The translations under genes and the position numbers were made by a program. A stretch of 48,582 nucleotides of DNA from a virus. Shown here one piece after another: positions 689-47,800 of this stretch. The notes below the pieces were generated by a model that saw only the letters and a program-made list of their open reading frames with translations, made no database searches and was not told where the DNA came from. The first letter of the stretch is position 1; each line of letters opens with the position of its first letter. The stretch spans positions 1-48,582 of IMG/VR virus record IMGVR_UViG_3300025132_000061; one strand, written 5' to 3'.

Positions 689-3600
689 ATGACCCCTTTT
701 CAAACTAGGGAAAAGCTAAGGCGTTATAGGTTTAGACCTCAGAACTTTTCTCAAGCTGAGGCTAAAGAGTTAGAGAAGTATGCTAAGATGTATGGCATTC
801 CTCATAGTAGTGAAGCTACGGAATTGCCAGAAGCAGGTGTAAGTGGCGTATTATCTCAATTTAGCTCTGGTCTTACAGAAGGATTTCTTGGTCCACTTGC
901 AATGGGTGGATGGGCTGAAGACCCACAAGACGAAGTTCAATCAATAGCACATAGTGCAGGACACTTATTAGGTTTTGCAGTTCCTTTAGCAGGTTCTGTA
1001 TTAACTGGTGGAGGTAGCTTACTTGCTCGTGCAGGGTTAGGTGGTATTGGTGGGCTAACAAAAACTGCAGGTACATTTCTAAAAACACAAAAGTCTGTAC
1101 CATTACGTGTTGCTGATTTTGCTGAGGATAAAGCTAAAGACTTTATGGCTAAAGCAGGATTTGAAGCAGGTAAGTATTTACAAAAGGGAGCATTAAAAGA
1201 AGGACAAATCACTTTAAAGCAAAAAATAACTGATGTAGCGTTTCAAGGTGCTCATCTTGGAGTAGCTAGTACAGTAAGTGGAATGTGGGATGGTGAAGAT
1301 AATGAACTAGACAATTTTATGTTTGGTGCAGTAGCAGGTGGATTCTTTGGTGGCTTAGGTAATTTTGTACGAATAGGTAATATGGTGCAACATGCCAATC
1401 CTAAAGTAGTGAATGCAGGTAAAAGGACATTATGGGAGCATAGTAAAGAGTTATCAGATACTTTATATAATTATCGTGGTCAAATAGTTAGAGGTGCATT
1501 AGGTGCAGGATTCCAAGGTGGTATGGCTAGTATGCAAGGCGCTCCAACAGCTACTCAATTTTATGAATATGCATTAGGTGCTTTCTTTGGTAAAGGTGCT
1601 CATGGAGTTCCAGAAAAGATGGCTACCAAATTTTTTAATAGGTTCAACGAAAAACAAGAAGATGGTGTGACTTTAAAGTATGAGTTTTCTGACATGAGAA
1701 AGATGTTAGAGTCTACTGAATACCTTGAAATGCCTAAAGAAGCACAGGAAATAATACGAGACAAATACAATAATCATATAGGTGAAATATGGGATAGAGC
1801 TACCAATCCTGATAGAATAGAATCTGGTGACTCTACAGCAAGTGTTGTGTTAGGCTCAGAATTATCAGGTAGCTATAATAAAGCATTAGAACGCAAAGCT
1901 AAAGACTTAGCTAAAAAAGTCAAAGATTTAGAACCACATGAAATAGCTGAAACACAAGCAGAATTAATAGATGTAATACCTACAAAGTATCGTAGACAAG
2001 GATATATGGGTGTAGTTACCGAAGGTATTATGAAAAAAGTGAACGCAGGGGAGCAATTAGAAGGTCAAGCTAAAGAAATTGTTGACTCAATGTCCCCAGA
2101 AGCTATAAAAGAAATGAAATCTGGTGTTGCAGACCCATTAGAAAGAGCAATAACAGAATATTACGAGAAACTCCCTACAGAAAAATTAAGATTATCTGCT
2201 GAGGACTTACTTGTAGCTGATGAAATGGTTGCGTCAGACCAACCTGAAACATCTTCAATACCATTACTTAGAAGGTCATTCAACAGATTGCAAAAAGATG
2301 TACCTAGTGATGTAAACGAAGCAGATGTTTTAACTCATGCAATAGAGTATTTCAATACATTAAAGGAGACTGGCTATAAAGATAAGGCAGTAAAAGAGAT
2401 TGTAGAAGATTATATGGTAGCTTTGGAAGCTAAATTCCCTACAATAAAGCCCGATGTTAAGACTAAGGGTGCCTTTATACAGGCTTTTACACGTTTAAAA
2501 CAGGGAAAAACTAGACCTATTCTATCTTTTAATAAGGTAGAGAAGAAATCTGGATGGCTTGATTCGTTAAATGTTCTTAAAAGAAAAGTAACTGGAGCAG
2601 AAGCTAAGTCTGCTGATGAAGTTATGTATGAAAAACTCTGGGGAAATAAAATCCAGGTTAGAGAATTTAATGAAGTCGTAGATAGAGCAGGTAATTCATT
2701 CTTTGTTGCTAAACCACATGATAGAATATGGAATCCTACCACTAAAAAGTGGGAAGGCATTATGGATAAACAAGCTTGGATGGAAGTCATGGGTCAATTA
2801 GAAGAAGGTGGTTTCTACTTAAAAATTCCTAAGAAAGACACGGGTGCTGAAAGAATATATCCACATCATCCTAAGACAAAAAATACCACAGTAGATAACA
2901 TACTTAAAAAAGTAAGTAAAAAGGGTAAGGTTCCCTTAAAAGTTTTAAATGAATACATAGAAAAAGATTATAAATTATGGTTAAAGACCATGGGTATGAC
3001 TCCTAAAGAAGGTAAAGAGCAAAACCTAAGAGGAGTCTACAATAAAGCTTTTAAATCTAATTTCCTATATGAAGAGAACTTTGGTTTTAGAACTGCTATC
3101 GCTAGAGTAAAAAGAGAAGCATTGCTATCATCTAAAGGTTTTTTTCAATCAGACCCAGAAGTATTTAAAGATATAGCTCCAGATGGTAAGATAAAAATAC
3201 ATATTGTAGATACAGAGTCTAATCTTAAAGCTACAGATAAAATTCGTAAGTGGTTTAATGTGTCAGGCAAAGAACCTGAAATGTTTTGGACTAGGAATGC
3301 TAAAGGTGATTATGTAGAAGAAGCTTGGACAAGTAAGATTGATGGTTGGGTAGTCATGCATAGTGATTTATTTAATAGATTTGTAGAGGCAAATGGTTTT
3401 AAAGGTCACGAAACAAGTCACTTAAAACCTGCCGTTGCTATAAGAATGCCAGATGGCTCATTATTTTTAGTCAAGGGTGGTGTTCATGCGTCCCGTATGG
3501 GATACAATGAGGCTCTAAAAGACCCAAATTCGATGATTATTGCTACTAGTGCAGTTAAGGCATTACCTCCTGGAATTAAGACCTTTCTAGGGCAATCTAA

Positions 3601-6600
3601 TAATAAAGGTAAGTACACTTTATACGACCAAGAAATCTACAATGCTAAGGGTAAAAAGGTAAAAGCCACTACTCCATCTATGGAGATGAAAGTAGATGAT
3701 TTTAGAATTAGTTTTGGTGTCTATGGAGATGCTCATTCAGGTAAACCAGTAAGTATTAAAAAACAGATGCATACCTTCTTTGAAGGATTAACAATGTCTA
3801 GGTCTGGATATAAAGATTTTATGGATGCTATACATCAAGATGTCGTTCATGGTACTCCAAGAGCAAATGAGTATATGGATGCATTGTCTAAAAACCCTAA
3901 TACTGCTATTCCTAAGAATTTTGATGTAACAGAGTTAAGTGATAAACATTTTGTACAAGTAATTAATGACATAACTCATCCTCTACATAGAGAATTGAAT
4001 AAGGAAATCTTCAAGAAGCTAAAACAAATGGAAGCTACAGAGGAATTTGAGGCTCCCGTACTGCAGGAATTAAAAGAATATGCTAATAGTTTTGAACAAT
4101 GGTACAGACGTAGTGGTTATCATCCTGCTAGTTCTATTATAAACTACAATTTATATAGCAGGACAGTTCATATGTATCGTATGGACAAATTTACCAATCC
4201 AGTATGGAAAAATAGTGGTAGTGGTTGGGTAGCAGGTGTGGACCCAATCATGGAAGCTGTTACAGGTGGTATCCGTGAAAATAGAAGTTATGATTTCTAT
4301 CAAGATGGTGAAGTAATTCAAAAAGAGGTAGGTCATTTTAAGCTAGGTCACAGTCATGGTAAAATGAAAATAAAGTGGTTTGGTAAGGAAGTTGATTTAT
4401 ACGATGCTTATAATGAGTATCAAGAAGGCAAAGGCAGTCCAGAGCGTATGGCTCAAATGCGTCAACAATTAATGATGGCAGTAATGCGTGTTCCTGCTAA
4501 TGCTATTAGTGGAACAAGGGCATTGCTATTTGATGGTTTTGTAGATAACGATGTTGTTAAAAGTAAAAGTGTAGATGGCAAAAAGGTAAGGTATCAAGAT
4601 GACTGGAGCGTTTATATGCGTTCTAGAGACCACTTTTATATAGATGGTGCAGATGTAGATGGGGATAAAGTATTCTTTTTTCAAGGAATGCCTCACAATT
4701 ATATGAATGACTTAATTAAAAATGACAATTTCTTTGAAAGACTGCAAGATAAAAAACAGGTCTTATTTGAAAATAAAGCAAAGAAGTTTGATAAGTTATT
4801 TAAAAGTGAGACATCTAAAGAAGATGTTAACTTTGTAGAAAATAATCCTATTGCACAATGGTCTCCAGGTCAATTACGCAAAGCAGGAATGAGTGCTAGA
4901 ACTGGGAAAAAAGGATTAGGTATCGTAGTAAATACCAAGAGTTTCTTAAATACTGTTCTATCAGATATTATTACCAATAAAAAAGGTAAATTAGAATTAG
5001 ATGTCCACTACAGAGGGAAATTTGCAGGTACATTACTAGGAAAAACAGACATAGACCATTTAAAAAGTGATATGGGATATTATGTTGTAGGTACAGAAGC
5101 CCATAGTAGAACAGCAGATAGTGCCAACTACTACTCAATGGCTACGCCACAAGAAATGGCACAAATCATATTTGAATCAGCGTTTAAAAAGATAGTATTT
5201 AAGACGAAAGATGGAAAATTTAGACCTGCTAGACTATCAGATTTAAAAAATACACTCCAATATCGTCACTTAATCGACTTAAATGCCAAACTATATGGAT
5301 ATAATTATGAAAAAGGTAGAGCATACAACCAACAAGAAGTCAACGAAGCAATCCAGTCTTTTAAAACTGAGCCAAAAGGTATGTCAAGTATTGAACAGAT
5401 TGCCCATAATATGGCTCAACATAGTCTGGATGTTAATCCATTAAAGCATTTTAACTACAAAAGTATGTCTGAATCTATTAGACTACTTAATAATACAATA
5501 TTTAAAGAAGATGGTGTATTAGGTTATATAACACGAAAGAATTTAAGAGTACTACCAGTTTATTATCATGTAGACTATGGTGCAGTACGAAAAGCGATGG
5601 CAAATCATCCTGATTTTAGAACCACAGAAGGAGAAAGACTCAGGAAAGTAGATGAAAAGATGCCAACCAAAGCCCAAAGAAAGCCCTACAGAGATTTTAT
5701 ATTTGAAGCAATGTCCAAACCTAACGAAGAAGGACTAACATTACTGGAGCAAAGATATGCTAAAATGGGTCAACTGGCAGAAGGTAAAAAAATACAAAAG
5801 ACTTTCAATTCTATATTCACAAATGAAAGAGCGTTTGAAGGCAGGTCTGAAAAACCAATAAGTAGGCTACCTGCTCATATAGAAAAAGAGTACAGAATAA
5901 ATGATACTTATGATGTCTGGAGTGCCTTGCAGTTAATGGCTAAAGGAAGAAGGCTAGAACAAGCTATAGAACAAACTGGTGAAAATGCATTAAAAGGTGG
6001 AAATGTTCCTTATGAAGATATCAATAGGATTGCCAATGAAATATATGCAGGTAGAGAATTAACTGGGAATATAGACATACTAAAGAATGAAAAATGGTCA
6101 GTACAAGTAGAAAAAGCAGTAGAAGATTTAAATAATGGTAGAGTACCCAGAAGTAGACCAGAAAATAAGTTCACTATTTTAAGAGATATTATTACAAGAC
6201 ACGCAGAAGCTATCAAATTAAGATTTAATCACGCATATAAGAATAGTAAAGAACCTGCATTTCGTACAGAAGCTGAAATGAATCAGCGTATATTAAAAGA
6301 TAAGTCAGAAATAACTCGCTACGCTAAAGAATTAGGAATAAGACCAGAGATAGCTATCGAATATTATGAGAACTATTTGTTAGGCAGTATTAGACCACAG
6401 CAAACAACAAGAGAGGGCTATACTAGAAATATAAATGCTCGTATTACCTCTGCTAAAAAGAGAAAAGACTGGTCTAAAGTAGAAGAATTAAGAGACCAAA
6501 AAGAAAATTGGCTCCGTACTTATGAAAATACTAGTACACCTAAGTTTATGTGGACCATGGATGCTATAAATTCTAAGACTATGGAAGAGTTTATGACTGG

Positions 6601-9600
6601 CTATGGTAATACCTTTGACTTATTAAACACTAAAAACCCAGAAAAGCTTCCTGTAAGTCAAGAAAAACTCTATGATTACCTCAGTAAACAAAAAAATGAT
6701 GTCAAATTAGGCAATGTAGAGAGCAAATCTGAAACACTTGAGATACATGATGTAGAAATAGACAGAGTTTTTAGGTTAAATGAAGCAGGGGATGTAGAAA
6801 TAACCAAGGATATTAAAGATATTGACAAGGTAAAAGTACCAAAAGATATCCCAGGAACTATTAAGCAAATTAAAGAGACGCTTAAAGACTTGCCTGATGG
6901 AGCTACATTAAGATTTGAAGATTTATATACAGTAATGAAGAATATGCAACAATCCCCAACAACTTCTATCAAAGAAGCTACTTGGGATGACATAAGAAAC
7001 TTCAACAGATTTTTAAAAGACATAAAAGACCAATCCAGTAACGCTCACAAGTGGTGGTATTCCTTTATCTTTCCAGATGCTATAGGCAGAAAAATGGCAG
7101 GTCATGACCTCGACCTTCTTTATAAAATGCAGATACCAGTCAAAAATGAGAAAGATTCTGGATTGGCAACTATTAAAGTTCCAGTTAGTACCATGTCATT
7201 TATAAATAAGACAGGTGGTAACATAAGGGAAATTGAAGATGCTATAAAAAACTCTATGGTAGAGGAGTTATTCACTTCCATAGGAGTTAAAGGTGAATTG
7301 GAAGCTATACCAAATGGTATTACCAAATTCACAGACCTCTTTATGTTTGCTCAAAAGAAGATGAACTTTGAAAGAACATCTCATCAAGAGCGTAAAGAGT
7401 TCTACTTTAAGGAATTACAAGCAACAGAAGATTATTACAAATCCCAATATGAGGGTAAAACACATAAAATAACCAGAAATGGTAAACAAGTCGAAGTAAC
7501 TAGCGAGCAACTTATTGATGATATCATTAACCAACAGAGTCAATACTTTGAAAGGTTCTATGAAAGATTCATCGGTACTGGTATCGTAGATAAAGATGGA
7601 GCATGGAATAGAGTAGACTGGTCACGAATAGACGAAGCTCAGGAATGGGCAGGGACTGGTTTAAAAATCCATGACTTTATTAAGTACAATAAATACGGAA
7701 GGTTTGATATACAAGGATTTAACCAACTAGTTATGTCTAACGTAGAAACCTTTGGTGTGAATAACCTGTATAAACTCATCGGAAAGACCACCAATCCTTT
7801 AGGAGTGGAATTATTGAATCGTGTGCAATACGAAACTGCACTTGAAGAATATATAGTAAAGAAAGGCATTAAGAATCCAGACTCAGATAAAGCAATGCGA
7901 ATACGAACAGCATGGAGAAAAGCAGATAAAACAAAATTCTTTGGTGTAGGGCGAGTAGGAGGAAAAGACACTTCTGGTGAGTTTATTACAGAGTATTTCC
8001 CACAAATGATGCATGATAAAAAGAAGTTAAAAAGTTGGATGCAGAATGAATCTGTTCAGTTAAAAACTTCTTTAGAAAACTACATAACAGAATTAATAGG
8101 AGATGGTAAACTAATTAACCAAGGTGCTTATAACATCAATAAAAATTATAGGTTGAATAAAACCGAAATAGATGCATTAACTGGAAAGATACCTACAAAA
8201 AAGATATTAAAGATATTTGGAGTAACGGGACCAAAGAAACTCCGTGAGCGTATTATTAATCTAAAGCTAGAAAGACAAAGACAAGATTTTGAAATATGGA
8301 TGGGTACTAGGGTAGAAGATGCTACTGGTCAGTCAGATTATTTAGTACAATATCTAAATGCTGAATATAAAAAAGGTAGAGAGCATTGGAGCGATATTAA
8401 TGCAGAACATAGACCAGGAACTGGACGTGCAAGAAGTGACGTACCTATGCCTCATTTCTCTTATGGATTTGAAGTATTAGAAGCCTACACTAATCAATGG
8501 GTAGGTTCATTCTTTAAGAACATGAATGCATTGGCATTTCGTAAAGCCATAAACCAATATGCAGAAAACAATGTCTACGCTCAGGACAACCCTGAAATAG
8601 CAGAAATGTGGACTATGGAAATGAGAAAGTATGCTTCATCCTTAATGGGTAAATCAAACTTCTTACCTAGTAAATATACTGGATTAACTAAGGTAGAAAC
8701 TGCCAAGCTAAAAGAATCATTAAAGACTGCCAAGGGTATGGATAAAAAAAGGATTCAGGCTAAACTCAGGTCAGATGATAGACTTAAAAGAAAATTTAAC
8801 ATAAAAGCACCATGGTATAATCCACTACAAAGTTTTGAATATAAAATGTCAGACCAGAACATTGTTGATTATCTGGATGCAAAATCACAGGGATTAGACA
8901 GGTGGCTATTACCTAATAAGTTACATGGCACATCTAAAGACCCTAAACTATTTGGAATGGAATTACCAACGGGTGAAAGAGCAAGACATCAGGTATTGTT
9001 TCAGACATTAAATAACATAGGTGCATTTGAATCTAAGATGTCATTGATAACTCTACTTTCTCATCCTAAAACATCGTTAGGTAATATTTTAGGTGGTAGC
9101 CAGAATACTGTAACTAATATGGGTTTAAGAAACTTTGTCCGTGCAAGAGATACTAAGTTTTTAATCCAAAATGTTTTTGCAGGAGGTAAACTAAAAGATG
9201 GTACTCCTATAAGAACAAGAGCAGATATTCATAGATGGGTAGCTGAAATTGGAGCATTGGAATCATTTTATATAGATGAAGCAATGCAGGATAGAAGATT
9301 AGATGCCAAAAAATTAACACCATTCATTAGAGAAGTATTCAGTAAAGATAGAGTTAATGACGCTACCATAAAAGATTTAGCTAAGAAATACCAAGTAACA
9401 GATAGCATTATGTCAGCAGGTGGATATTTTATGCGTACTTCTGAACGAGCTTTGCGTACTGATGCATTCTTAGCACACTACTTAAATGCCAGAGAATACT
9501 TAACGAGAATCATTCCTAATATGCCTTTTGACCACCCCTATTTAACTGGCATGGCATTAAAAGGCGTAGAAGCCACACAGTTTTTATATCATAACCTAAA

Positions 9601-10165
9601 TAGACCTTCTATCTCAAGAAGTGCTATGGGTAAAGTAATGACAAGATTTCAACCATTTGTATGGAACTCATTAAGATTTAGACGAGACATTTTTAAACAA
9701 GCTAAGATGTATAACTTTGCAGATAAGACTATGAATGAAAGAGCAAAGCGTTTAATGACTATGGATTTAATGACGATGGCATTAGCAAATGTATTTGTAG
9801 GTAGTATTTTCGATAGTATTCTACCTCCTCCATTAAATTACCTCCAAGATACTGCAGAATGGTTATTTGGAGATGAGCGTTCATCAGAAAGAGCGTTTTT
9901 TAGTAGCTATCCATCTACCGCATTAGCACCATTACAAGTAGTAACAGCACCAGTACATAGATATTGGCTCCCTCTGATGACAGCTACTATAAATGGTGAA
10001 TGGGATAGATGGGCAGACTACTATGTACATACATTATATCCTTTTGGAAGATTAGCTAGAAGTAGCATAATGACTTTAGATAAACCAGAGATGGTAGCAG
10101 AATTTATGTTTGGAATACCATTGCATAAGTTTGGAAGAATGATGAGGGACAAAGAAGATGAATGA
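689..10165 (+). CDS. Giant (3158-residue) virion protein with a two-barrel RNA polymerase-like active-site motif
   Basis: Seen: the motif GADVDGDKVFFF around residues 1320-1331, with D1322, D1324 and D1326 forming DxDGD. This matches the metal-binding NADFDGD loop of RNA polymerase beta' and of the single-chain two-barrel polymerases (QDE-1, YonO, crAss-like phage virion RNAP). About 55 residues upstream lies RVPANAISGTRAL (R1267, P1269), which resembles the NRxPTLHR element that precedes NADFDGD in beta'. A lysine cluster (K1019, K1024, K1025) lies about 300 residues before the aspartates, where the other barrel would sit. The N-terminus has Gly/Ala-rich hydrophobic stretches (about 88-123, 210-225, 267-300), and the C-terminus has a hydrophobic stretch near 3025-3045. 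The region around 2780-2980 resembles large-polyvalent-protein-associated domains. Inferred role: an ejected virion protein that transcribes early genes after entry. It starts right after the previous stop, with AGGA nearby. Confidence 0.72.
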   Translation: MTPFQTREKLRRYRFRPQNFSQAEAKELEKYAKMYGIPHSSEATELPEAGVSGVLSQFSSGLTEGFLGPLAMGGWAEDPQDEVQSIAHSAGHLLGFAVPLAGSVLTGGGSLLARAGLGGIGGLTKTAGTFLKTQKSVPLRVADFAEDKAKDFMAKAGFEAGKYLQKGALKEGQITLKQKITDVAFQGAHLGVASTVSGMWDGEDNELDNFMFGAVAGGFFGGLGNFVRIGNMVQHANPKVVNAGKRTLWEHSKELSDTLYNYRGQIVRGALGAGFQGGMASMQGAPTATQFYEYALGAFFGKGAHGVPEKMATKFFNRFNEKQEDGVTLKYEFSDMRKMLESTEYLEMPKEAQEIIRDKYNNHIGEIWDRATNPDRIESGDSTASVVLGSELSGSYNKALERKAKDLAKKVKDLEPHEIAETQAELIDVIPTKYRRQGYMGVVTEGIMKKVNAGEQLEGQAKEIVDSMSPEAIKEMKSGVADPLERAITEYYEKLPTEKLRLSAEDLLVADEMVASDQPETSSIPLLRRSFNRLQKDVPSDVNEADVLTHAIEYFNTLKETGYKDKAVKEIVEDYMVALEAKFPTIKPDVKTKGAFIQAFTRLKQGKTRPILSFNKVEKKSGWLDSLNVLKRKVTGAEAKSADEVMYEKLWGNKIQVREFNEVVDRAGNSFFVAKPHDRIWNPTTKKWEGIMDKQAWMEVMGQLEEGGFYLKIPKKDTGAERIYPHHPKTKNTTVDNILKKVSKKGKVPLKVLNEYIEKDYKLWLKTMGMTPKEGKEQNLRGVYNKAFKSNFLYEENFGFRTAIARVKREALLSSKGFFQSDPEVFKDIAPDGKIKIHIVDTESNLKATDKIRKWFNVSGKEPEMFWTRNAKGDYVEEAWTSKIDGWVVMHSDLFNRFVEANGFKGHETSHLKPAVAIRMPDGSLFLVKGGVHASRMGYNEALKDPNSMIIATSAVKALPPGIKTFLGQSNNKGKYTLYDQEIYNAKGKKVKATTPSMEMKVDDFRISFGVYGDAHSGKPVSIKKQMHTFFEGLTMSRSGYKDFMDAIHQDVVHGTPRANEYMDALSKNPNTAIPKNFDVTELSDKHFVQVINDITHPLHRELNKEIFKKLKQMEATEEFEAPVLQELKEYANSFEQWYRRSGYHPASSIINYNLYSRTVHMYRMDKFTNPVWKNSGSGWVAGVDPIMEAVTGGIRENRSYDFYQDGEVIQKEVGHFKLGHSHGKMKIKWFGKEVDLYDAYNEYQEGKGSPERMAQMRQQLMMAVMRVPANAISGTRALLFDGFVDNDVVKSKSVDGKKVRYQDDWSVYMRSRDHFYIDGADVDGDKVFFFQGMPHNYMNDLIKNDNFFERLQDKKQVLFENKAKKFDKLFKSETSKEDVNFVENNPIAQWSPGQLRKAGMSARTGKKGLGIVVNTKSFLNTVLSDIITNKKGKLELDVHYRGKFAGTLLGKTDIDHLKSDMGYYVVGTEAHSRTADSANYYSMATPQEMAQIIFESAFKKIVFKTKDGKFRPARLSDLKNTLQYRHLIDLNAKLYGYNYEKGRAYNQQEVNEAIQSFKTEPKGMSSIEQIAHNMAQHSLDVNPLKHFNYKSMSESIRLLNNTIFKEDGVLGYITRKNLRVLPVYYHVDYGAVRKAMANHPDFRTTEGERLRKVDEKMPTKAQRKPYRDFIFEAMSKPNEEGLTLLEQRYAKMGQLAEGKKIQKTFNSIFTNERAFEGRSEKPISRLPAHIEKEYRINDTYDVWSALQLMAKGRRLEQAIEQTGENALKGGNVPYEDINRIANEIYAGRELTGNIDILKNEKWSVQVEKAVEDLNNGRVPRSRPENKFTILRDIITRHAEAIKLRFNHAYKNSKEPAFRTEAEMNQRILKDKSEITRYAKELGIRPEIAIEYYENYLLGSIRPQQTTREGYTRNINARITSAKKRKDWSKVEELRDQKENWLRTYENTSTPKFMWTMDAINSKTMEEFMTGYGNTFDLLNTKNPEKLPVSQEKLYDYLSKQKNDVKLGNVESKSETLEIHDVEIDRVFRLNEAGDVEITKDIKDIDKVKVPKDIPGTIKQIKETLKDLPDGATLRFEDLYTVMKNMQQSPTTSIKEATWDDIRNFNRFLKDIKDQSSNAHKWWYSFIFPDAIGRKMAGHDLDLLYKMQIPVKNEKDSGLATIKVPVSTMSFINKTGGNIREIEDAIKNSMVEELFTSIGVKGELEAIPNGITKFTDLFMFAQKKMNFERTSHQERKEFYFKELQATEDYYKSQYEGKTHKITRNGKQVEVTSEQLIDDIINQQSQYFERFYERFIGTGIVDKDGAWNRVDWSRIDEAQEWAGTGLKIHDFIKYNKYGRFDIQGFNQLVMSNVETFGVNNLYKLIGKTTNPLGVELLNRVQYETALEEYIVKKGIKNPDSDKAMRIRTAWRKADKTKFFGVGRVGGKDTSGEFITEYFPQMMHDKKKLKSWMQNESVQLKTSLENYITELIGDGKLINQGAYNINKNYRLNKTEIDALTGKIPTKKILKIFGVTGPKKLRERIINLKLERQRQDFEIWMGTRVEDATGQSDYLVQYLNAEYKKGREHWSDINAEHRPGTGRARSDVPMPHFSYGFEVLEAYTNQWVGSFFKNMNALAFRKAINQYAENNVYAQDNPEIAEMWTMEMRKYASSLMGKSNFLPSKYTGLTKVETAKLKESLKTAKGMDKKRIQAKLRSDDRLKRKFNIKAPWYNPLQSFEYKMSDQNIVDYLDAKSQGLDRWLLPNKLHGTSKDPKLFGMELPTGERARHQVLFQTLNNIGAFESKMSLITLLSHPKTSLGNILGGSQNTVTNMGLRNFVRARDTKFLIQNVFAGGKLKDGTPIRTRADIHRWVAEIGALESFYIDEAMQDRRLDAKKLTPFIREVFSKDRVNDATIKDLAKKYQVTDSIMSAGGYFMRTSERALRTDAFLAHYLNAREYLTRIIPNMPFDHPYLTGMALKGVEATQFLYHNLNRPSISRSAMGKVMTRFQPFVWNSLRFRRDIFKQAKMYNFADKTMNERAKRLMTMDLMTMALANVFVGSIFDSILPPPLNYLQDTAEWLFGDERSSERAFFSSYPSTALAPLQVVTAPVHRYWLPLMTATINGEWDRWADYYVHTLYPFGRLARSSIMTLDKPEMVAEFMFGIPLHKFGRMMRDKEDE

Positions 10166-12014
10166 GAGATTAATGTGGGGAAAACTCCTAAAATCTATAG
10201 GAATTGACCCAAATCCAAAAAAACGAGGCTTAAATTTCACGGATACGCCCGTTTTTAACATCGAGACAGGTAAACGTATGACTGTTTCTGAAGCCCAAAG
10301 ACATGAAATGGCGAAAGACGCAGGTGGAAATATCATCACAAATCCTTATGCAAGGAATATGGTAGACATGCCAATCATGCCAACTCCTGTAGGAAATGCT
10401 GTCGAAACAGGCGTGACTGCATTATCAGAATTAAACCCAGTAGCAGGTATGGTAGCAGGTGTTCTCTCAGGTAGAATACCAGGGCAAACATTGAAACAAC
10501 CAAGGCAAATGAATGCGTATGAAAATGCCTATAATAACTACAAAAAGATTAATGGATATAAGAAAAGCTCCTATGAGCTACAAAGCTATACTGATGATTA
10601 TGCAGGACCTCCTAGACAAGAAACTATAGTTAAGTTTAAAGACAAACCATTGTCAACAGTATCCATTCCACCGCAAAGAGTTCCAATGGCAGAAAGAGTT
10701 GTAGCTAATCCTGCAGAAAAAGTTCCAGAAGGAACATTGCCTTCTATAACAGCAGATGGTGTAGGTATTACTGGATTACCTCCAAAGGAAGTAACAAGAC
10801 TTTTAAAAGAAAGATATGGTAAAGATGCTATTGACCCTTATTTTGAAGGACCAACTAAAACATGGGATAATACTGGCTTAGGTTATATGAGAGGTAGAGA
10901 CAATGCGTACTTTGACCCTAAAACTGGAAAACCATTCCCAGAAGTAGCAGGAGATAGAAATAGAGGTAGAATGCACTTTAGTAAAACTACTTCCAATATT
11001 GATATAGATATTCATGACCCAGAACATGCTGATTTATTCGTAACAGCTAAAGACCATGGTGAAGGATTAATGCACTTGCAAGATGTATCTAAAAAGCTAG
11101 GTAATATGCCTATTGCTGTATTTGCAAGTCCAGGTGGAGTGAGCGGAGTCCCACTAGACGCACATTTCTATAAACAAATGCAAGGTCCAGAAGGACCAAG
11201 AAAAGCCTTTGAGTTATTAGCTAGGTCAAAAGGTGACCCTGCCTTTATGAATTTTGAAATGGAAAAGTATTCAAATGCAATGAATAACATCTGGGAGCAA
11301 TTACCACATAAAGAATTATCCAGATATAATCCAGAAAGACATAAGTTCTTTGCTCAAGCATCAATGAAGCATGAAGCAGGAAAACCAGTTATCAATCCTA
11401 AGACTGGAAAGTTTTTTGTAGATTTTAAAACTGGTGAACCATGGATACCACCAGGAAGGCATTTCCCAGAAGTTCAAAAGAATTGGGGTAGATTACAAAA
11501 AGGTGATAATCCATTCGATGAAAAAACATTGTTCTGGAGAAACATGAAAGACATACCAAAATCTATGATGCATGATTGGTTAAATGACCAAGGTGGTATG
11601 ATGTTAAATCTAAGACATAGTGCAAAACCAAGTAGGTTAGATAATTTACGATTAGGTAAACACGGATTCAGACCTACAATATCTAAGGATGGATTCTTTC
11701 AAGAAGGACCAATGATGGGACCACCATTTGTTAGGCAATGGATGATGAATATAGGCAATATGGATAAAGCAGGTGTCGAAGCAATGAATAGAGTATTTGG
11801 ACCAAAAGGTTTAGTTGATGTAGTAGACCAAACTAGATATGTCCAAAATATACAAGATATTAATAGACCTGAGATGGGTAGAGGATTATTAGATAGCCAA
11901 TATTTGAACGATTTCATGAAAAGTTTTTCAAATAAAGCCCAAGAAACTATACGAAAAAACTGGAGACTAGGTCTAGTCCCCCCTTTGTTGCAAAATAACG
12001 AAGAAGAGCAGTAA
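10158..12014 (+). CDS. Probable virion/ejection-associated protein, unknown family
   Basis: This protein of 618 residues has its ATG overlapping the end of the giant protein gene by 8 bases, so the two are translationally coupled. I do not recognise the family. It is hydrophilic and rich in Met, Pro and Asn, with one weakly hydrophobic Gly/Ala/Val stretch near residues 75-110 and no obvious catalytic motif. It is the last gene of the rightward virion operon and ends just before the attachment site. Its partnership with the giant protein suggests a companion ejection or internal capsid protein. That role is inferred from position only. Confidence 0.7.
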   Translation: MNERLMWGKLLKSIGIDPNPKKRGLNFTDTPVFNIETGKRMTVSEAQRHEMAKDAGGNIITNPYARNMVDMPIMPTPVGNAVETGVTALSELNPVAGMVAGVLSGRIPGQTLKQPRQMNAYENAYNNYKKINGYKKSSYELQSYTDDYAGPPRQETIVKFKDKPLSTVSIPPQRVPMAERVVANPAEKVPEGTLPSITADGVGITGLPPKEVTRLLKERYGKDAIDPYFEGPTKTWDNTGLGYMRGRDNAYFDPKTGKPFPEVAGDRNRGRMHFSKTTSNIDIDIHDPEHADLFVTAKDHGEGLMHLQDVSKKLGNMPIAVFASPGGVSGVPLDAHFYKQMQGPEGPRKAFELLARSKGDPAFMNFEMEKYSNAMNNIWEQLPHKELSRYNPERHKFFAQASMKHEAGKPVINPKTGKFFVDFKTGEPWIPPGRHFPEVQKNWGRLQKGDNPFDEKTLFWRNMKDIPKSMMHDWLNDQGGMMLNLRHSAKPSRLDNLRLGKHGFRPTISKDGFFQEGPMMGPPFVRQWMMNIGNMDKAGVEAMNRVFGPKGLVDVVDQTRYVQNIQDINRPEMGRGLLDSQYLNDFMKSFSNKAQETIRKNWRLGLVPPLLQNNEEEQ

Positions 12015-14967: not shown

Positions 14968-15143
14968 TACCATTTATCCCAATTATGTAGACTGCCTGAT
15001 AACTCCAATGGACCCACACCAAATCCCACGGATAGGTGCATACCATTAACATCATGCAATGCAAACTCAAGAGACAACAAAGAAAGAATTACAAAGCGTA
15101 CACTTTTTCCTCTTTCATTATTGTTCGTTTTTATTCTAAACAT
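14967..15143 (-). CDS. Small hypothetical protein, 58 residues
   Basis: The ATG at 15143 lies within the last bases of the primase-helicase gene (8-base overlap), and its TAA overlaps the ATG of the nuclease gene (TAATG). This double overlap strongly supports translation. The protein begins MFRIKTNNNERGKSVRF, has a modest hydrophobic middle and ends HNWDKW. Family and function are not recognised. Confidence 0.65.
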   Translation of the reverse strand: MFRIKTNNNERGKSVRFVILSLLSLEFALHDVNGMHLSVGFGVGPLELSGSLHNWDKW

Positions 15144-16926
15144 CAATCACCTGCTTAAATAGCATATGAGGCTTATGAAAAGTAAATCCTAACTGCATAT
15201 AATCTTCGTCTCTAGACTTCTCAGCTTTCACCATACGAAATCCAGAATCTCTATCATTATCTTTTGCGTTAATTGTTAGAACTTTATCAGCCTTTTGATA
15301 AGTATTTGATGTACCTTTCAAATGACCAAGCTTTACAAAGCCTTCTCTTTCTGCATCTTTATTAACATGGTGTACAGCAATGACAATACAATCTTGATTT
15401 TGAGCTACAGACTTTAATTGTCCAATAACTTCATTCATCTTTGTAATCTCATCATACACACCTTTCATAAATACCATATCCGTAGTATCCACTACGACAA
15501 CCTTAGGTTTACTCCTAGCAATACCATCAACTAACCTAGAAATCTCAGGTGGGTCACAACATACTTGAATATGTTGAAAAGCACTTTGCAATTTCTGAAC
15601 ACCACTTCTTTTGATTTCATCATTAACCTCATTCTTATCCATAAGAGAAGTCATTTGACAAAACCTTCTAAAGGTTAAGTGTTTATGATTCTCTAAAGAT
15701 AAAAAGAGACAAGAGAGGTGAGGTATTTGAGTGACTAGATTCATAACGAATGTTGATTTACCCATACCAGTATTCCCAGTAACTACTACGAGTTCTCCAG
15801 GTAGTACCCAGTAATCATTTTTCATGGTGTAGATATCTTTAAAGTTGAACGAGCTTTCTGTCATATCTTTGGCGAGAAATTCGGCATACTGTTCAGCCAT
15901 ATCATCTACATTCATTACATTCATATTATAATCTTTATGCTTAAAGTAGATGCAATTCGTTTTGCACCACTTCGACATAATACCATCCTTACAAGAGTAC
16001 TCATATCCAGTATCGAATATTTTACGAGCAACTTCTCCTGCTTCAGATTGTAAGCCAGACCATTCAGTTAATGTATGTGCAACTACTTTTTCAGGCATTC
16101 CCCAACGTCTCATCCATGAAGCAATACGCATCATTGTATCGTTGCGTTCACCTACTACTGGAGGAGAGTTCAAAGCAGTTTGCATACAAGTTACCACAGA
16201 ATTAGGGTCCATACGAAATTGACTTCTAACTGTGTAAACTTGCTCAGATTTAACTGGGTATTTAACGAGATGTTTTAAATAAGCTTTCACTTCTTTAAAC
16301 TCGTATTGACTCCAGTCTAAACCTTGTAAACCTTCCCATGATTGAGATTCTTCAATGATAGCAGGCATTTGATGATTGTTAAACTGACTAACAGTAAATG
16401 GTATTTTGAAGTTGGACTTCTTTTCATTAAAACTGTAGCCTGCACGAATCAATCTTGCACCATCATATATGTTATCACATTCAGGGAATAAAGTTGTAAG
16501 CGTTTCCTTGACAATTCCTGGGAGAGAAGTGGAAGGTTGAAAACCAAATAAGTTAGGCATTTCAATATGGAATCCAGTACCTGAATACCAGATTACTAAA
16601 TGATTCTCATTAACTCCAAGGTCCTCAATTAATTCAGTATTAACTAACCAATGTACTGCCTTATATAAAGCATCATCAGTTAAGTCTTTTTTATCATAAT
16701 CGAGAATAATGTTTTCTACATAATAGACTCCATTAAATCCTTGAATAGTACCTACACCATTGATATGTTGTTTTAATTGTTCATCAAATGCATACCAACT
16801 GTGATAGACTTCGGTTTTCTGCCCAGGTTCAAATCTGTATTTAGGAACATCCTTTAAAGGGACTACTTGGTTCCTATTACTTACATGACCTGTGGCAATC
16901 TCTACCATACGGATATCACTATCCAC
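15136..16926 (-). CDS. Primase-helicase: archaeo-eukaryotic-type primase domain fused to a DnaB/RecA-like helicase
   Basis: This protein of 596 residues should unwind DNA at the fork and make primers. The N-terminal half has AEP signatures: LDYDK (D76, D78), SGTGFH (S115, H120) and RLIRAG (R161). Residues about 258-300 resemble a PriCT-like helical linker, followed by cysteines C312, C321 and C325, which may bind zinc or a cluster. The C-terminal half is a RecA fold: Walker A GNTGMGKST (384-392), Walker B VVVVD (D480), and AVHHVN near 520 as the sensor region. Its 3' end overlaps the next gene by 8 bases, and its start overlaps the previous gene by 8. It is the main replication enzyme visible here. 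Confidence 0.88.
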   Translation of the reverse strand: MDSDIRMVEIATGHVSNRNQVVPLKDVPKYRFEPGQKTEVYHSWYAFDEQLKQHINGVGTIQGFNGVYYVENIILDYDKKDLTDDALYKAVHWLVNTELIEDLGVNENHLVIWYSGTGFHIEMPNLFGFQPSTSLPGIVKETLTTLFPECDNIYDGARLIRAGYSFNEKKSNFKIPFTVSQFNNHQMPAIIEESQSWEGLQGLDWSQYEFKEVKAYLKHLVKYPVKSEQVYTVRSQFRMDPNSVVTCMQTALNSPPVVGERNDTMMRIASWMRRWGMPEKVVAHTLTEWSGLQSEAGEVARKIFDTGYEYSCKDGIMSKWCKTNCIYFKHKDYNMNVMNVDDMAEQYAEFLAKDMTESSFNFKDIYTMKNDYWVLPGELVVVTGNTGMGKSTFVMNLVTQIPHLSCLFLSLENHKHLTFRRFCQMTSLMDKNEVNDEIKRSGVQKLQSAFQHIQVCCDPPEISRLVDGIARSKPKVVVVDTTDMVFMKGVYDEITKMNEVIGQLKSVAQNQDCIVIAVHHVNKDAEREGFVKLGHLKGTSNTYQKADKVLTINAKDNDRDSGFRMVKAEKSRDEDYMQLGFTFHKPHMLFKQVIDV

Positions 16927-20786: not shown

Positions 20787-20834
20787 TGTAGACTACATTA
20801 ATGTTTAGATAACATATACGAAATGAAGTCTACA
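20787..20834. promoter_or_regulatory. Tandem operator-like sites TGTAGACTACA
   Basis: A palindrome TGTAGACTACA (20787-20797) and a near copy on the other strand (TGAAGTCTACA, 20824-20834, one mismatch) lie between the rightward promoter and the repressor gene. The same palindrome recurs at 25567-25577 ahead of another rightward block. They are candidate binding sites for the HTH repressor. Confidence 0.5.
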
Positions 20835-20852: not shown

Positions 20853-20887
20853 ATGTATTTTTAAAATCTTATTGATTGAGTGGGCTC

Positions 20888-21631
20888 ATGAACAAAGAAC
20901 TTATAAGGTCCTGGTTAAATACCACGGACTTACCTATCACAGTAATAAGCCGTAAACTGAATATCTCTAGAAATACTCTTTATGCTTGGCGTAAAGGAGA
21001 AGGGGAAATACGTTATAATAATTACAAGCGATTCCTCGAAGTATTTGGACATCAATTAAATAACAAGGAGGGAAGGGTGTACGAAAAAGTGCAATCCGAA
21101 AGGGAGGAGATAGACTCAAAGTATGTTATGAGACTACAAAAAAATGAAATTGATAGGTTAGAACAAGAGAATAAGCAACTGAGGGAAGCTACAAACTCTG
21201 TTCAATCTAAAGCTTGGGATGACATCCAGTACGATTTCTATTCAGATGTAAGGGTTAAATTAATACCCTTTAAGCGTGTTGTTCATTCTATGAAGGGTCA
21301 TGGATTGGATGAACTCGCTGAATCATTAGAAGTGAATAAAACAAAACTATTAGAAGATTACTTTAGTGTAGGTAACTGGCATGATTTTAATAATCATCCA
21401 GTAAATGCCATCATTGAACCTAAGACATTAGGTCAATTACAAGAGATGTCAGTTAAGTTTCCATCTATAATGGAATCTTTAAAACTATTAGTAGGTGAAC
21501 ATTACTTTCAGCAAATAATAGTTTATAGAAATAAAAATAATGTAGTGAACAGTCTTTGTAGTATTAAGATACATTGGATAGAGAATCCCCATAGAGCCGA
21601 GTGTAAGACCCAGATTATAAAGATAAGGTAA
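20888..21631 (+). CDS. HTH transcriptional regulator, probable lysogeny repressor
   Basis: This protein of 247 residues runs from the ATG at 20888; a TTG start four codons upstream is less likely. The N-terminus has a helix-turn-helix (residues about 12-36: TDLPITVISRKLNISRNTLYAWRKGEGE). A basic/acidic coiled coil follows (KNEIDRLEQENKQLRE), then a C-terminal domain I do not recognise. No LexA-type Ala-Gly cleavage site or Ser-Lys dyad is evident. It is transcribed divergently from the early operon across a region with operator palindromes, the classical position of a CI-type repressor. Confidence 0.72.
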   Translation: MNKELIRSWLNTTDLPITVISRKLNISRNTLYAWRKGEGEIRYNNYKRFLEVFGHQLNNKEGRVYEKVQSEREEIDSKYVMRLQKNEIDRLEQENKQLREATNSVQSKAWDDIQYDFYSDVRVKLIPFKRVVHSMKGHGLDELAESLEVNKTKLLEDYFSVGNWHDFNNHPVNAIIEPKTLGQLQEMSVKFPSIMESLKLLVGEHYFQQIIVYRNKNNVVNSLCSIKIHWIENPHRAECKTQIIKIR

Positions 21632-25550: not shown

Positions 25551-25577
25551 TATATGTATACATATATGTAGACTACA
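25551..25577. promoter_or_regulatory. Palindrome TATATGTATACATATA plus operator TGTAGACTACA
   Basis: A perfect 16-base palindrome (25551-25566) abuts TGTAGACTACA (25567-25577), identical to the site near the repressor. TTGACA occurs at 25517-25522. Together they suggest a repressor-controlled start for the packaging and structural genes that follow. Confidence 0.5.
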
Positions 25578-25611
25578 TAAGGTATTATATACATATACGT
25601 AAGTGTACACT

Positions 25612-31821: not shown

Positions 31822-33078
31822 ATGGCAGGCGAAGCAAGTGGAATGAAATCCCTCGGGTCCTCAGGTGTTCTTTATGATGAAAGACGGGACTTCTACATTC
31901 GTCCAAATGTTGTAAAAGAACTTTGGACAGACGTAGCGCCTTTTCTTACTGTTGTTGCTAATCAAGGCACAATATCTGGAATGGCTGACCCTACTTTCAA
32001 AATGTTTGAACACAGAAACCCTTGGCAGAAGCAAGAGTTAGTATTAGATGCAGTAGATAATGTTGCATCAGCTAATGGAATTGCGATTGGAAAAAACCTA
32101 ATTGGTTTAGAGTGTGAAGTGTGGGAAGCATCTTATGCTTCTAAAAAAGGTGTAATCTTAATAACAGACGTAGCTAATGATGGCTCAGGTCTTACTAAAA
32201 AAGATTTATCATCTGACGCAGTTACACTAGCAGATACCGATATACTTATTGTTATTGGTAACGCACAAGCAGAAGGAGCTCGTTCTCCAAAAGCTTGGAG
32301 TGATGAACTAGAAGTAGTCTATAACTCTACTCAGATATTCAAAACACCTCTACAGATTACTGGAACTTTGTTGCAGGCATCTTTACGTGGTGAATCTAAA
32401 GAGTTAGCTAGGCTAAGAGACCAGAAATCAGCAGAACATAAAATACAGAAAGAAAGAGCTTTCTTATTTGGTTCTAACCCTAAAGGAATTAGTGGTGATT
32501 TCGCTAATATCGAAGCTGTATCTACAGATGATGGAACAGTTCGTTCAACAATGGGTATTATCCCTGCAGTTATGGAGCATGGCTCTAAGACTGGGTACGG
32601 ACAGAACATCTTCGAGTGTGGAGATGACTATAATTATGCAGGCTTTGTAGATGATATGGAAAAGATATTCCAGTATGTACCTACTGCAGGCATGAAGCGT
32701 GCATTTGTTGGTGCAGGAGCTCTTGGATATTGGTCTAAGCTTGGTAATACATCAGGCGGTTCTACTTTCGCTGACAAGAGCGGATGGGTAGTTAATCTTG
32801 GCGACATGAAAAGAGATGCTCTTGGATTCAATTACAGAGTCCTTGAAACACCTCATGGAATGTTGCAGTTAATTCCTACTCCTGCTTTACGTGGACCTTA
32901 CAATAAGCACATGGTTGTTGTTGATTCTGAAAATCTGTTTCATGCTCAGTATAGAGCACCTCAGTTTCAGGCATCAATACAAGAAAATGATGCTGACTAT
33001 GTTAAAGACCAGTACTTCTCTGACGAAGGCGTTGGTATTAGCATGATTGAGTCTCACGCAATAATGGTTACTCCGTAA
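31822..33078 (+). CDS. Major capsid protein
   Basis: This protein of 418 residues has a strong ribosome site (AAGGAG). The sequence has the N-terminal FYIRPNVVKELWTDVAPFLT, a long beta-rich core and the end EGVGISMIESHAIMVTP. Size, position after the scaffold and composition fit the HK97-fold capsid protein of podoviruses, close in layout to N4-like or related marine phages. No delta-domain protease is encoded nearby. Confidence 0.85.
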   Translation: MAGEASGMKSLGSSGVLYDERRDFYIRPNVVKELWTDVAPFLTVVANQGTISGMADPTFKMFEHRNPWQKQELVLDAVDNVASANGIAIGKNLIGLECEVWEASYASKKGVILITDVANDGSGLTKKDLSSDAVTLADTDILIVIGNAQAEGARSPKAWSDELEVVYNSTQIFKTPLQITGTLLQASLRGESKELARLRDQKSAEHKIQKERAFLFGSNPKGISGDFANIEAVSTDDGTVRSTMGIIPAVMEHGSKTGYGQNIFECGDDYNYAGFVDDMEKIFQYVPTAGMKRAFVGAGALGYWSKLGNTSGGSTFADKSGWVVNLGDMKRDALGFNYRVLETPHGMLQLIPTPALRGPYNKHMVVVDSENLFHAQYRAPQFQASIQENDADYVKDQYFSDEGVGISMIESHAIMVTP

Positions 33079-44056: not shown

Positions 44057-44818
44057 ATGAAAATAAAAGAACAAGTAGTTATCTTTCCAGATATCCACTT
44101 TCCCAACCACGATGAGAAGGCATTTAAATGTGCTTTAAACGTATTAAGAAAAGTAAAACCATCAGCATTCTTACTATTAGGAGATGTAATTGATGGCGAA
44201 TCCGTTTCCCATTGGCAATGGCGTAAGAAAAAGCGTCCACCATTGGAATACCAACTTCCCAGTATTGATGAAGAAATTAAGCAGGGGAATCTTGGTTTGG
44301 ATAGAATTGATGAAGTTTTGGAAGAAGTGGGGTGTAAGAAAAAACAATTTACCCAAGGAAATCATGAAAAATGGTTCGACTACTTTGTCGATGAAAACCC
44401 ATACCTTGAAGATTACACCTCAAGAAAAGCCTTCAAATTTGATGAGCGAGGATATAAATGGGCTCCGTATGGTAAAGTCATTAAAGTGTTTGGAAGCAAA
44501 TTATACGCATACCACGGAGGACATTACATGGGAATTGCCCATGCAAGAACTCACGCATTACAAATGGGATGCAACATCATCTATGGTCACACACACGACA
44601 GCCAAAAAGCAGTTATCACCCACATTAGTGGACCGCACATGGCGTATTCAATGGGATGTTTAACAGATATGACAAAAGATTATCTTAGTGGACGTCCTAC
44701 TAATTGGACTCACAATGTTGGTATTCTGGATATCTTTGCAAACGGCAATTTTAATCTTGTGGTGTTGGATATTGTCAAAGGTGTCACAACATATGGAGGA
44801 GATGTTATAAGTGGCTAA
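44057..44818 (+). CDS. Calcineurin-like metallophosphoesterase
   Basis: This protein of 253 residues has all metal-binding motifs: DIH (D12, H14), GDVID (G42, D43), GNHE (N102, H103, E104), H153 in AYHGGH, and GHTH (H178, H180). AGAGG precedes the ATG. Substrate unknown; phage members may act on DNA ends, nucleotides or phosphoproteins. It sits in the late operon between the endolysin and the tail protein, overlapping the latter by 8 bases, so a late role such as DNA processing is possible. Confidence 0.85.
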   Translation: MKIKEQVVIFPDIHFPNHDEKAFKCALNVLRKVKPSAFLLLGDVIDGESVSHWQWRKKKRPPLEYQLPSIDEEIKQGNLGLDRIDEVLEEVGCKKKQFTQGNHEKWFDYFVDENPYLEDYTSRKAFKFDERGYKWAPYGKVIKVFGSKLYAYHGGHYMGIAHARTHALQMGCNIIYGHTHDSQKAVITHISGPHMAYSMGCLTDMTKDYLSGRPTNWTHNVGILDIFANGNFNLVVLDIVKGVTTYGGDVISG

Positions 44819-47800
44819 ATTAACTGAATTAGTTAGTGATTTTAGTGGAGGCATAGTTAAAGGTTATGCTTCATCTAACCTAAAGAACAATCAGTTAGCT
44901 GAGTGTAATAATCTCATAGCAGATGGCATTGGAAAACTGTCTACTGTCCCTGCAGTTCAAAGTAAATCTACCAATGATTTTGTAGTGGACTTACCTAGTA
45001 TTAAGTCTAAGAATATTCATGCATGGTCTACAGATATGCATTTATCTATTCTTACTCCACAAGATTCAAGTGTTATAGTAGACCCAGTAGTAACAGAAGT
45101 ACAGAAAGCTTATCAGGCTAGAACATTGTTTTTTACAACAAATATGAAAGCTAACCTACAGCAAACTATAGGTATAGTAGATGCTGATAATGATATGCCT
45201 TTAGATGCTATATTTCTTGATGGAAGTATTGGTGGTGGAAAAAGTGAAACTTTTGTAAGGGAACAAGAAACAGTTAAGCAACTTGAAGAGCATATTCATG
45301 CTTGGAATACTAGAACACATGATGGTTCTGGCTCTAATTATGACCAAGCTTTTGATGATTACAATAATAATATTTCTGAGTGGAAATACATGACTCATTC
45401 TCAAATGGGCACATTTCAAAAAGGTTTCCCAGAAAGTTTTGACCAAAGCACCTACTTTCCTATTTCATTTAGTACAGAAACAACGCAATGGATTAATCTA
45501 AATATTGATGATACGGATACTGCAAGATTTAACACTCCATATTTAAGCGCTCTTATAGGGCGAGAGGGATTTACTGCAGATGATGACGATACTGGAAGAG
45601 TAATGCGATTTGGTATTGTTCATGAATATTGGGGTAGAAAGAATATAAAGTTAGTAAACCTACAAGGTTCTATGAGTGGTGCTCAGTTTTGGACTCCAAA
45701 AAGAAATCCAAGTGTAGGTTTTGGAGAATTTGGATTAGTAGGGACTCCTACTGAAGAGATGCTAACCCTTCCTTTGGCAAATGAAGTACTTACAGCAAAT
45801 ATGATGGGTGAAGCAGATGGAAATATGATTAATAAGAGTGGCAATGTAGATGGATGGGAAGAAAATGATGAAGAATGGGTTATGTTTTGGTCAGATGTGT
45901 TTGATGAATATAAGCAGTTTGGAGCTTTTTCTGAATGGACCTACGAATTACAAAATGTACCTAATAATCAGAATGTAAACTACAAACTTACTATAGTATT
46001 TCATTCTAACTCAGAACATACCGAAGAAAAGACTCTACAAGCCTCATTTGAGCATGAAATAGGTCAGGATGCATATGATATAAGGACTGGTCTTTTTAGT
46101 GCCTTAGAAGCGAAATTAAACAATGATGCTGATTTAGCACCATTTAAGTTTAGTTGGGCTGATGATGGAGAAAAAGTAACCTTTGAACAAGACGTAAATA
46201 CCCCTACACCTTATGGTATTAAAAGCGTAACTGCTCAACAAACAGTTAGAGAAGCAAATGTAGAATTAACAACAGGTCAGTCTTTTGATAATTTATTAGC
46301 TGTAGCAGGACAAAATGCTCAAGTTGCAGTTTATAGAATAGATGCTGATGAATGGAACGATTGGAATCTTGATTTAAGAAACGATACAAATGTATCACAG
46401 AATACTGCATTGGCATTTTCAGACGCAGAAGGTTATCTACGAGTTTCAGATAAGAATTTTTATACAAATAATAAACCTAAGTGGTTTGGGTATTTAGATT
46501 TAAACAATCATGTGTATGTAGATGGAAATTTCAATGTAGATGACCAAGGTGACCCACAAGGTGGATTCTACGAAGACGATGTAATGCCTACACCTTATAC
46601 TAAGATACATGATAGTGGAAACTTAGAAGGACAATGGCTACATACTATCTACGAAACATATAGTAATTTTAAATATGAAGAAGATAGTCCAAGTGAAGTA
46701 ACCATAGATTTCCCACAGCACGGAGAGTATAGCCCCCATCAGCAAGGAATAAAAGTATTTGCAGAATGGATAGATGGCAAACAGCAGAATGGTAGTGATT
46801 TAAGTGGACACTCCTTAATGGATGGTAGTTTTGGAAAAGCAGAGATAGTTGAAGTATGGTGGAATTATACTTATGTAGGAGGTGCAATAAGTCAGCCTCA
46901 AAAGTTTAAAACATATAAAAACTCAGGTAATGCAGTAGAAATAAAAGAGTTTTCTATGACTCCTCAAGTAGATGCTGATACAAAATGCGCTTTAGGAATA
47001 GGATTTGCATTAGGTAGAAGATTAGTAAGTGGAGATGGCTCTACTGGGTTAATTAACGCAAGATTAAAAGGCATTGAAATATGGGGAAGGTTTACAGATT
47101 ATGATGCAAATAACTTACTACAATTAGCTGAGATAGATTTAGCAAAAGGATGGCGTTCTGAAGCTACTGGAGATTGGAAACCATTACATGACCATCAATA
47201 TGTGGATGGAGATGGCGTTAGTCATCCTAATGCCTGGTTTTCTCAGTCAGATGACACACATTCTTTAGCTGAAACATTAATATATACTACTCCTCCTGCA
47301 ATATCTTTCTTTCATAAGTATGGAATACGACATGATATACCTATTGGATTTGGAAATCTAGGTTCAGGTTGGAAAACATCCTGTGTATTTAACAGGAGAG
47401 CATACTATGGTAATGTTAGATTAGAGAATACAGACAACTTATTAACATATTATCCAGATGGTATTGTTAAATCTGCGGTAGGTATGTATGATACTGTTTC
47501 TGTAGATAACTTAATAGAAGCCACAATTAATGATGGAGATGAAATTACTTGTTTGATTGTAGCAGGTAATAAACTACTTCAATTCAAGAAGAGGTCTCTA
47601 ACCATTATGGGCGTAAAGATTTTAGAAAATGGTCAATCAAGAGAAGTTATTGAAAGGACTATAGACCATGTAGGTGTAGATGGAGATAACCAAATATGCA
47701 AAACACCTTATGGTATTTTATGGGTAAGTAGAAGTGGTATCTATACTTACGATGGTCAAAAGCTAGATAAACTTACAGAAAACCAACAAGGAAGTACTAT

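Follow-up and report, generated by a model that had tools for sequence, protein, structure and literature searches.

We conclude that the 3158-residue protein encoded near the start of the viral DNA analysed here (IMG/VR record IMGVR_UViG_3300025132_000061, positions 1 to 48,582, hereafter the window) contains a single-chain two-barrel RNA polymerase (RNAP) and is itself probably a virion protein that is ejected. In the form that we consider very probable, residues ~785-1500 hold a DNA-dependent RNAP of this class that is made late, packaged, ejected and transcribes the first phage genes. The assignment is based on sequence conservation, predicted fold, motif order and late-operon position, from which we infer that the protein is catalytically active, belongs to the virion, is ejected and transcribes early genes. 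We propose to file the protein as a new family and a variant of the phage single-chain two-barrel RNAPs.

The giant protein and its family

The open reading frame (ORF) at nt 689-10165 is intact over its 3158 codons, and the features of the encoded protein are as follows.

689-10165, +: giant ORF, 3158 aa, with the predicted two-barrel RNAP in residues ~785-1500 (ORF, relatives)
965-1027, +: hydrophobic glycine-rich segment LLGFAVPLAGSVLTGGGSLLA, residues 93-113 (hydropathy)
1307-1369, +: hydrophobic glycine-rich segment LDNFMFGAVAGGFFGGLGNFV, residues 207-227 (hydropathy)
3188-3691, +: predicted DPBB-B (first barrel), residues ~834-1001, limits taken from predicted strands (AlphaFold2, Foldseek to 6VR4/QDE-1, cr130_1 profile match)
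3341-3364, +: DPBB-B motif DGWVVMHS, residues 885-892, resembling crAss TDAQxxIT (spacing ~400-430 aa before DxD)
3425-3427, +: K913, candidate active-site lysine of DPBB-B (invariant in the family alignment)
3473-3475, +: K929 (KGG), candidate equivalent of QDE-1 K743 (invariant; lysine spacing)
3557-3559, +: K957 (TSAxK), candidate equivalent of QDE-1 K767 (invariant; aligned with crAss SAVK)
3692-4471, +: mostly helical inter-barrel connector, residues ~1002-1261 (AlphaFold2 secondary structure)
4472-4684, +: predicted DPBB-A (catalytic barrel), residues ~1262-1332 (AlphaFold2, Foldseek, hhalign on crAss RIP...GSDFDID)
4487-4519, +: RVPANAISGTR, residues 1267-1277, resembling crAss YRIPxxxxSS, P23-45 FRNP and β′ RAPxLHR
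4652-4666, +: predicted metal-binding motif D1322-V-D1324-G-D1326 (invariant in relatives reaching the motif)
4865-4978, +: candidate bridge helix, residues 1393-1430, 38 residues (AlphaFold2)
within the candidate bridge helix: GKKGLG, residues 1406-1411, resembling crAss GKxGxG after DxD (motif table)
5078-5182, +: trigger-loop-like helical pair, residues 1464-1498 (AlphaFold2; invariant E1470 and RTADS 1474-1478)
8936-10162, +: C-terminal segment, residues 2750-3158, with hydrophobic stretch 3025-3045 (conservation profile, hydropathy)

A reading made from the sequence alone had pointed to a polymerase-like active site at residues 1321-1327 (ADVDGDK), preceded by an RxP block. Translation of the ORF bears out both residues and spacing: RVPANAISGTRAL occupies residues 1267-1279 from nt 4487, GADVDGDK holds D1322, D1324 and D1326 at nt 4652-4666, and both motif parts fall inside nt 4460-4700. 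DVDGD is the sole DxDGD among window ORFs of at least 60 aa. By itself this motif is weak and only mildly improbable evidence, being present in 4.4% of composition-preserving shuffles of the protein (0.2% when RxP is placed 40-70 residues before it), and the question was therefore settled through relatives and fold; it is conservation across homologues that raises the motif above chance.

Protein, family-alignment and motif scans of IMG/VR, the last with the motif written as degenerate DNA, revealed relatives of the giant protein in ~23 contigs, and 21 distinct usable sequences, the window protein included, make up the family alignment. Members with both ends present are 3,033-3,682 aa long, and identity to the window protein falls to 31-33%. 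Across the 21 sequences R1267, V1268, P1269, G1275, T1276, R1277, D1319, G1320-D1326 and F1329 are invariant, and a near-unchanged block reads RVP[AS]xx[IV]SGTR...[DN]xGxYM..[RK]DHFYIDGADVDGD. Aspartates that vary among homologues had been named beforehand as a refutation of the polymerase proposal; D1322, D1324 and D1326 are invariant in every relative reaching DVDGD. The same holds for D885-G886, K913, K929, K957, K1024, K1407 and R1474-S1478 across the family. Residues 2750-3158 form the best-conserved part of the protein. Hydropathy analysis places hydrophobic segments at both ends, those at 93-113 and 207-227 accounting for the hydrophobic N-terminus that had been noticed from the sequence.

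The family is new to Pfam and PHROGs, where the giant protein gave nothing beyond chance-level matches, and tblastn against INPHARED returned no match among 50,697 phage records. Likewise, phmmer and hmmsearch against PDB sequences found nothing for it. Genome contigs searched by protein and by DNA pattern held no relative of the giant protein, and no host was therefore assigned.

Predicted fold and sequence kinship of residues 785-1500

An earlier AlphaFold2 model of residues 620-1720, built from nine sequences of one clade, was unusable (pLDDT 53), whereas residues 785-1500 with the 21-sequence family alignment gave pLDDT 79.2 and pTM 0.80, the improvement being due to the deeper alignment. 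A double-psi-barrel fold had been set beforehand as the test of the proposal, and the model best matches 6VR4 and QDE-1 among solved structures. Foldseek against the PDB ranked the crAss-like virion RNAP 6VR4 top (E 2.6e-8, prob 1.00), QDE-1 second (E 4.9e-5) and maize RDR2 third (E 1.1e-3), with E. coli β′ (E 7e-3 and above), the AR9 and phiKZ nvRNAPs and Pol II at lower ranks; all of the best 50 matches listed were two-barrel RNAPs. Together with the invariant aspartates, this agrees with the two-barrel class proposed from the motif. The sequence-only reading had likened the motif to β′ as well as to single-chain enzymes: the likeness to crAss-like RNAPs and QDE-1 stands, but a β′-like multisubunit origin as nearest relative was rejected, since 6VR4, QDE-1 and RDR2 all rank above β′. 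On the predicted fold, the nearest branch is thus the crAss/QDE-1/RDR single-chain one. Alignments to 6VR4 and QDE-1 span 679-892 columns; as a whole, the model superposes only loosely on 6VR4 (query TM 0.42 and rmsd 15 Å in a gapped multidomain alignment), and the catalytic loop is poorly predicted, with confidence values under 50 at model residues 537-539.

The modelled second barrel runs from strand 1307-1310 through helix 1312-1319 and the low-confidence DVDGD loop to strand 1327-1332. This is the order of strand, helix, DxD loop and strand described for DPBB-A (PMC4996933). It is followed by the 38-residue helix at 1393-1430 and then by a hairpin and helices bearing the invariant RTADS. 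From their order after DPBB-A, we take the long helix as a candidate bridge helix and residues 1464-1498 as a putative trigger-loop-like element. The connector at ~1002-1261 sits where other two-barrel RNAPs have a clamp or neck.

A library of viral models also yielded matches at E < 1e-5 to the cr118_1 RNAP and to a number of further crAss-like giants, along with unnamed proteins reaching E 1.5e-25 and TM 0.69. Four such BFVD models (A0A516LW39, A0A516LAI4, A0A516M3R5 and A0A516L9L2) outscore every solved structure as matches to the predicted fold, with E down to 1.5e-25 at 12-16% identity. Judged by their models, these unnamed proteins are likely to be further unannotated two-barrel RNAPs. 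More generally, giant phage proteins may often carry two-barrel polymerase modules that have escaped annotation.

At the sequence level, the family profile matched the RNAP of crAss-like cr130_1 over the first-barrel region (E 1.3e-5), aligning TSAAKVLPEG with TSAVKVGSQG and continuing to the IKKQMH block. At 16.2 bits, this match exceeds the highest score reached by 1,200 locally shuffled crAss RNAPs (8.0 bits). It was the one significant HMMER match among eight crAss RNAPs, and its position ahead of the DxDGD barrel is the expected one. Unconstrained hhalign placed RVP...DVDGD on crAss RIP...DFDID at E 0.016, a weak profile-profile score for DPBB-A taken alone, and an HMM seeded with known DPBB-A motifs gave its best real matches at the right place with E ~0.5. 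With a nine-sequence profile, hhalign against the crAss and P23-45 RNAPs was not significant, which says little as the known pair crAss-gp64 itself scored only 0.053. Full-profile similarity to crAss RNAPs lies near the detection limit. Four motifs occur in the same order in both groups, two of them at closely matching spacings ahead of DxD. Relative to DxD, DGWxVxH lies at -407 to -438 (farther from DxD in two relatives that carry an insert of ~100 residues) and crAss TDAQxxIT at -400 to -431; TSAxK lies at -339 to -368 and SAVK at -305 and -309; GKxGxG follows at +78 to +95 in the giant family and at +104 to +182 in crAss RNAPs.

Genome setting and proposed working

The following neighbouring genes bear on the role of the giant protein.

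2-688, +: late gene, incomplete at the window start; its homologue in related contig L086 (323 aa) lies directly upstream of the giant gene
10158-12014, +: gene after the giant gene, 618 aa, no family, partly conserved in that position
15136-16926: primase-helicase gene
44811-48152, +: late virion gene, 1113 aa, at the far window end (synteny)
48152-48574, +: late gene, 140 aa, following the 44811-48152 gene (synteny)

Homologues of the 44811-48152 gene lie ~2.5 kb upstream of the giant gene, and at least seven relatives share the order metallophosphoesterase (counted where the locus reaches that far), 44811-48152-like gene, 48152-48574-like gene and giant gene. In L086, the 48152-48574 homologue lies ~1.3 kb ahead of the portion of the following gene with which the window starts. 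The window ends are therefore genome neighbours, with ~1.3 kb missing relative to L086, so that the window begins within a late virion operon, which the giant gene closes. The late-operon context claimed in the sequence-only reading is accordingly borne out by synteny among homologues, though it is not visible in the linear window. In homologues, tail genes and genes for small hydrophobic glycine-rich proteins precede the giant gene, which is the last of the structural operon; an integrase or helicase gene lies beyond it in several relatives. The L086 stretch missing from the window codes for small proteins that resemble internal ejection proteins, and one of them carries a hydrophobic glycine-rich tail.

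In ten giant-gene contigs, full-length identity of the major capsid protein is 63-71%, which places them in one phage lineage. The window phage has an integrase, a terminase with broad matches to many phages and a portal of the P22-type family with weak matches to Vibrio-type podophages; no tape-measure gene was found among the late genes scanned, and related contigs reach about 51 kb. The earlier description as a small integrating podovirus fits these features, and the lineage carrying the giant protein is one of unclassified temperate podovirus-like phages.

Relatives of the major capsid gene (31822-33078) are encoded in 443 IMG/VR stretches, far more than the ~23 contigs found with the giant polymerase gene; judged by capsid sequence, the lineage appears common in IMG/VR. 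One 57-kb relative (G014, L182-L184; terminase 72%, portal 66%, capsid 59%) gave no match to the polymerase profile and encodes downstream an 1801-aa protein that has a hydrophobic glycine-rich part and is without a polymerase domain. It also carries a second, distant terminase/portal/capsid set and may be a composite record. Related phages may swap the giant protein for one without a polymerase. Another contig (G017, L187 1-4071) begins after the point where the polymerase part would lie and encodes the last 1357 aa of a more distant giant protein, matching the post-polymerase residues and C-terminus (profile E 5e-154).

A search of DNA repeats for a vRNAP promoter yielded no convincing family, only an operator-like palindrome, TGTAGACTACAT, at 20787-20798 and 25567-25578. 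Near-copies lie at 17100, 20823, 22173, 22324 and 25816; the motif clusters in the early region, and 22 sites with at most two mismatches (some counted once per strand) compare with 6.8 expected, a number that none of 100 shuffles reached. It is perhaps a phage repressor operator, for example for the HTH protein at 20876-21631.

Based on these data, we propose that DPBB-B would provide basic residues, of which two-barrel RNAPs have two in the active site, with K913, K929 and K957 as candidates, while D1322, D1324 and D1326 of DPBB-A would hold the catalytic Mg2+, and the long bridge helix 1393-1430 and the trigger-loop-like element would follow. Most likely, the protein would be produced late, enter the particle alongside the small internal proteins whose genes lie just upstream, and leave it together with the phage DNA on ejection; gene position, size and hydrophobic segments point to this route. 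During genome entry the polymerase domain would transcribe the first phage genes, as modelled on phi14:2 gp66, a packaged and ejected RNAP that transcribes the first phage genes (PMC7886860), and on P23-45 gp96, an ejected virion RNAP acting on the entering genome (PMC10770324). The conserved hydrophobic N-terminus and the highly conserved C-terminus (residues 2750-3158) could serve particle docking and membrane passage.

It seems unlikely that the enzyme is instead a non-virion two-barrel RNAP, made in the cell for middle or late genes and left unpackaged. P23-45 gp64 is such a phage enzyme (PMC10770324), and our protein is known here from sequence rather than from particles; however, gp64 is a compact 616-aa protein, in contrast to our 3158-aa fusion, which has hydrophobic segments at either terminus and whose gene ends a structural operon behind tail and small hydrophobic glycine-rich protein genes. 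We give still less credence to a two-barrel nucleotidyltransferase that serves priming, DNA synthesis or some other task, or to an inactive structural barrel of an ejection protein. Although PolD uses the same fold for DNA synthesis (PMC4996933), the best fold matches here are RNA polymerases, the phage has a separate primase-helicase gene, and aspartates and candidate lysines that stay invariant down to ~31-33% identity are unlike a decayed site. That the motif is a coincidence within some unrelated internal virion protein is scarcely credible: DxDGD does arise in 4.4% of shuffles, but the fold match, the invariance and the independent first-barrel sequence match strongly disfavour this explanation.

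Place among two-barrel RNA polymerases

The ancestors and relatives of every cellular RNA polymerase are found among the two-barrel polymerases, and their single-chain branch, that of crAss phages and of the RNAi enzymes of fungi and plants, bears on how such enzymes originated. Returning to the packaged two-barrel RNAP, we lean towards the broader view that an abundant uncultured temperate podovirus-like lineage ejects an RNAi/crAss-type polymerase fused into an internal head protein. If true, an internal head protein would join the crAss giants and the tape measure as a third type of partner to which a virion two-barrel RNAP is fused, and in a phage that also integrates. With this family, virion RNAPs would come to include those of temperate P22-portal-type phages, and it becomes testable whether a phage capable of lysogeny carries a polymerase of its own into the cell and which genes that enzyme transcribes first.

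The N4 virion RNAP has a T7-type single-subunit fold, unrelated to the two-barrel fold. An N4/T7-type polymerase was rejected here, and the unrelated fold expected from the sequence is in line with two-barrel enzymes filling all of the best 50 fold matches listed. The N4 enzyme (Schitoviridae) is a functional parallel, a giant of ~3,500 aa (PMC12633501) ejected by a podovirus.

QDE-1 and eukaryotic RDR, the second and third fold matches, are likewise single chains with two barrels, and the K929-K957 pair, 28 residues apart, compares with K743-K767 of QDE-1 at 24 (PMC1750930). Unlike the giant protein, these enzymes are eukaryotic, RNA- or ssDNA-templated, dimeric and found outside virus particles.

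Thermus phage P23-45 gp96 and gp64 are phage two-barrel RNAPs with the motif RNP...DFDGD, gp96 being a virion RNAP within a giant ejected protein. However, gp96 is clampless with a tape-measure protein fused on its C side, whereas the giant protein has a helical connector of ~260 residues; with no tape-measure match in the scanned late genes, a gp96-type assignment was set aside. The giant-family profile gave no significant match to the P23-45 RNAPs.

The top fold match was the crAss-like virion RNAP (phi14:2 gp66, PDB 6VR4). As no crassvirus is among the portal matches listed, we rejected a crassvirus-encoded RNAP and regard the giant protein as working like one without being one. An accessory cpYpsA (SLOG) domain is common to both polymerase groups, in one giant-family member and one crAss-like RNAP giant (L001 giant protein, residues ~800-950; L022, residues 2428-2517); the scan left the family member unnamed, and it is probably L001, from an insert of matching type. 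The crAss-like RNAP giant L029 shows weak 2OG-Fe(II) oxygenase and DprA-like matches on its C-terminal side (residues 3616-3968). Both the crAss RNAP and the giant protein are single chains with DPBB-B before DPBB-A, and the former is likewise a giant fusion protein encoded with virion genes. Their motifs correspond throughout, TDAQxxIT to DGWxVxH, SAVK to TSAxK, RIP...DxD to RVP...DVDGD and GKxGxG in both, while the active site reads DVDGD in the giant protein, DFDID in phi14:2 and DFDGD in some crAss-like relatives.
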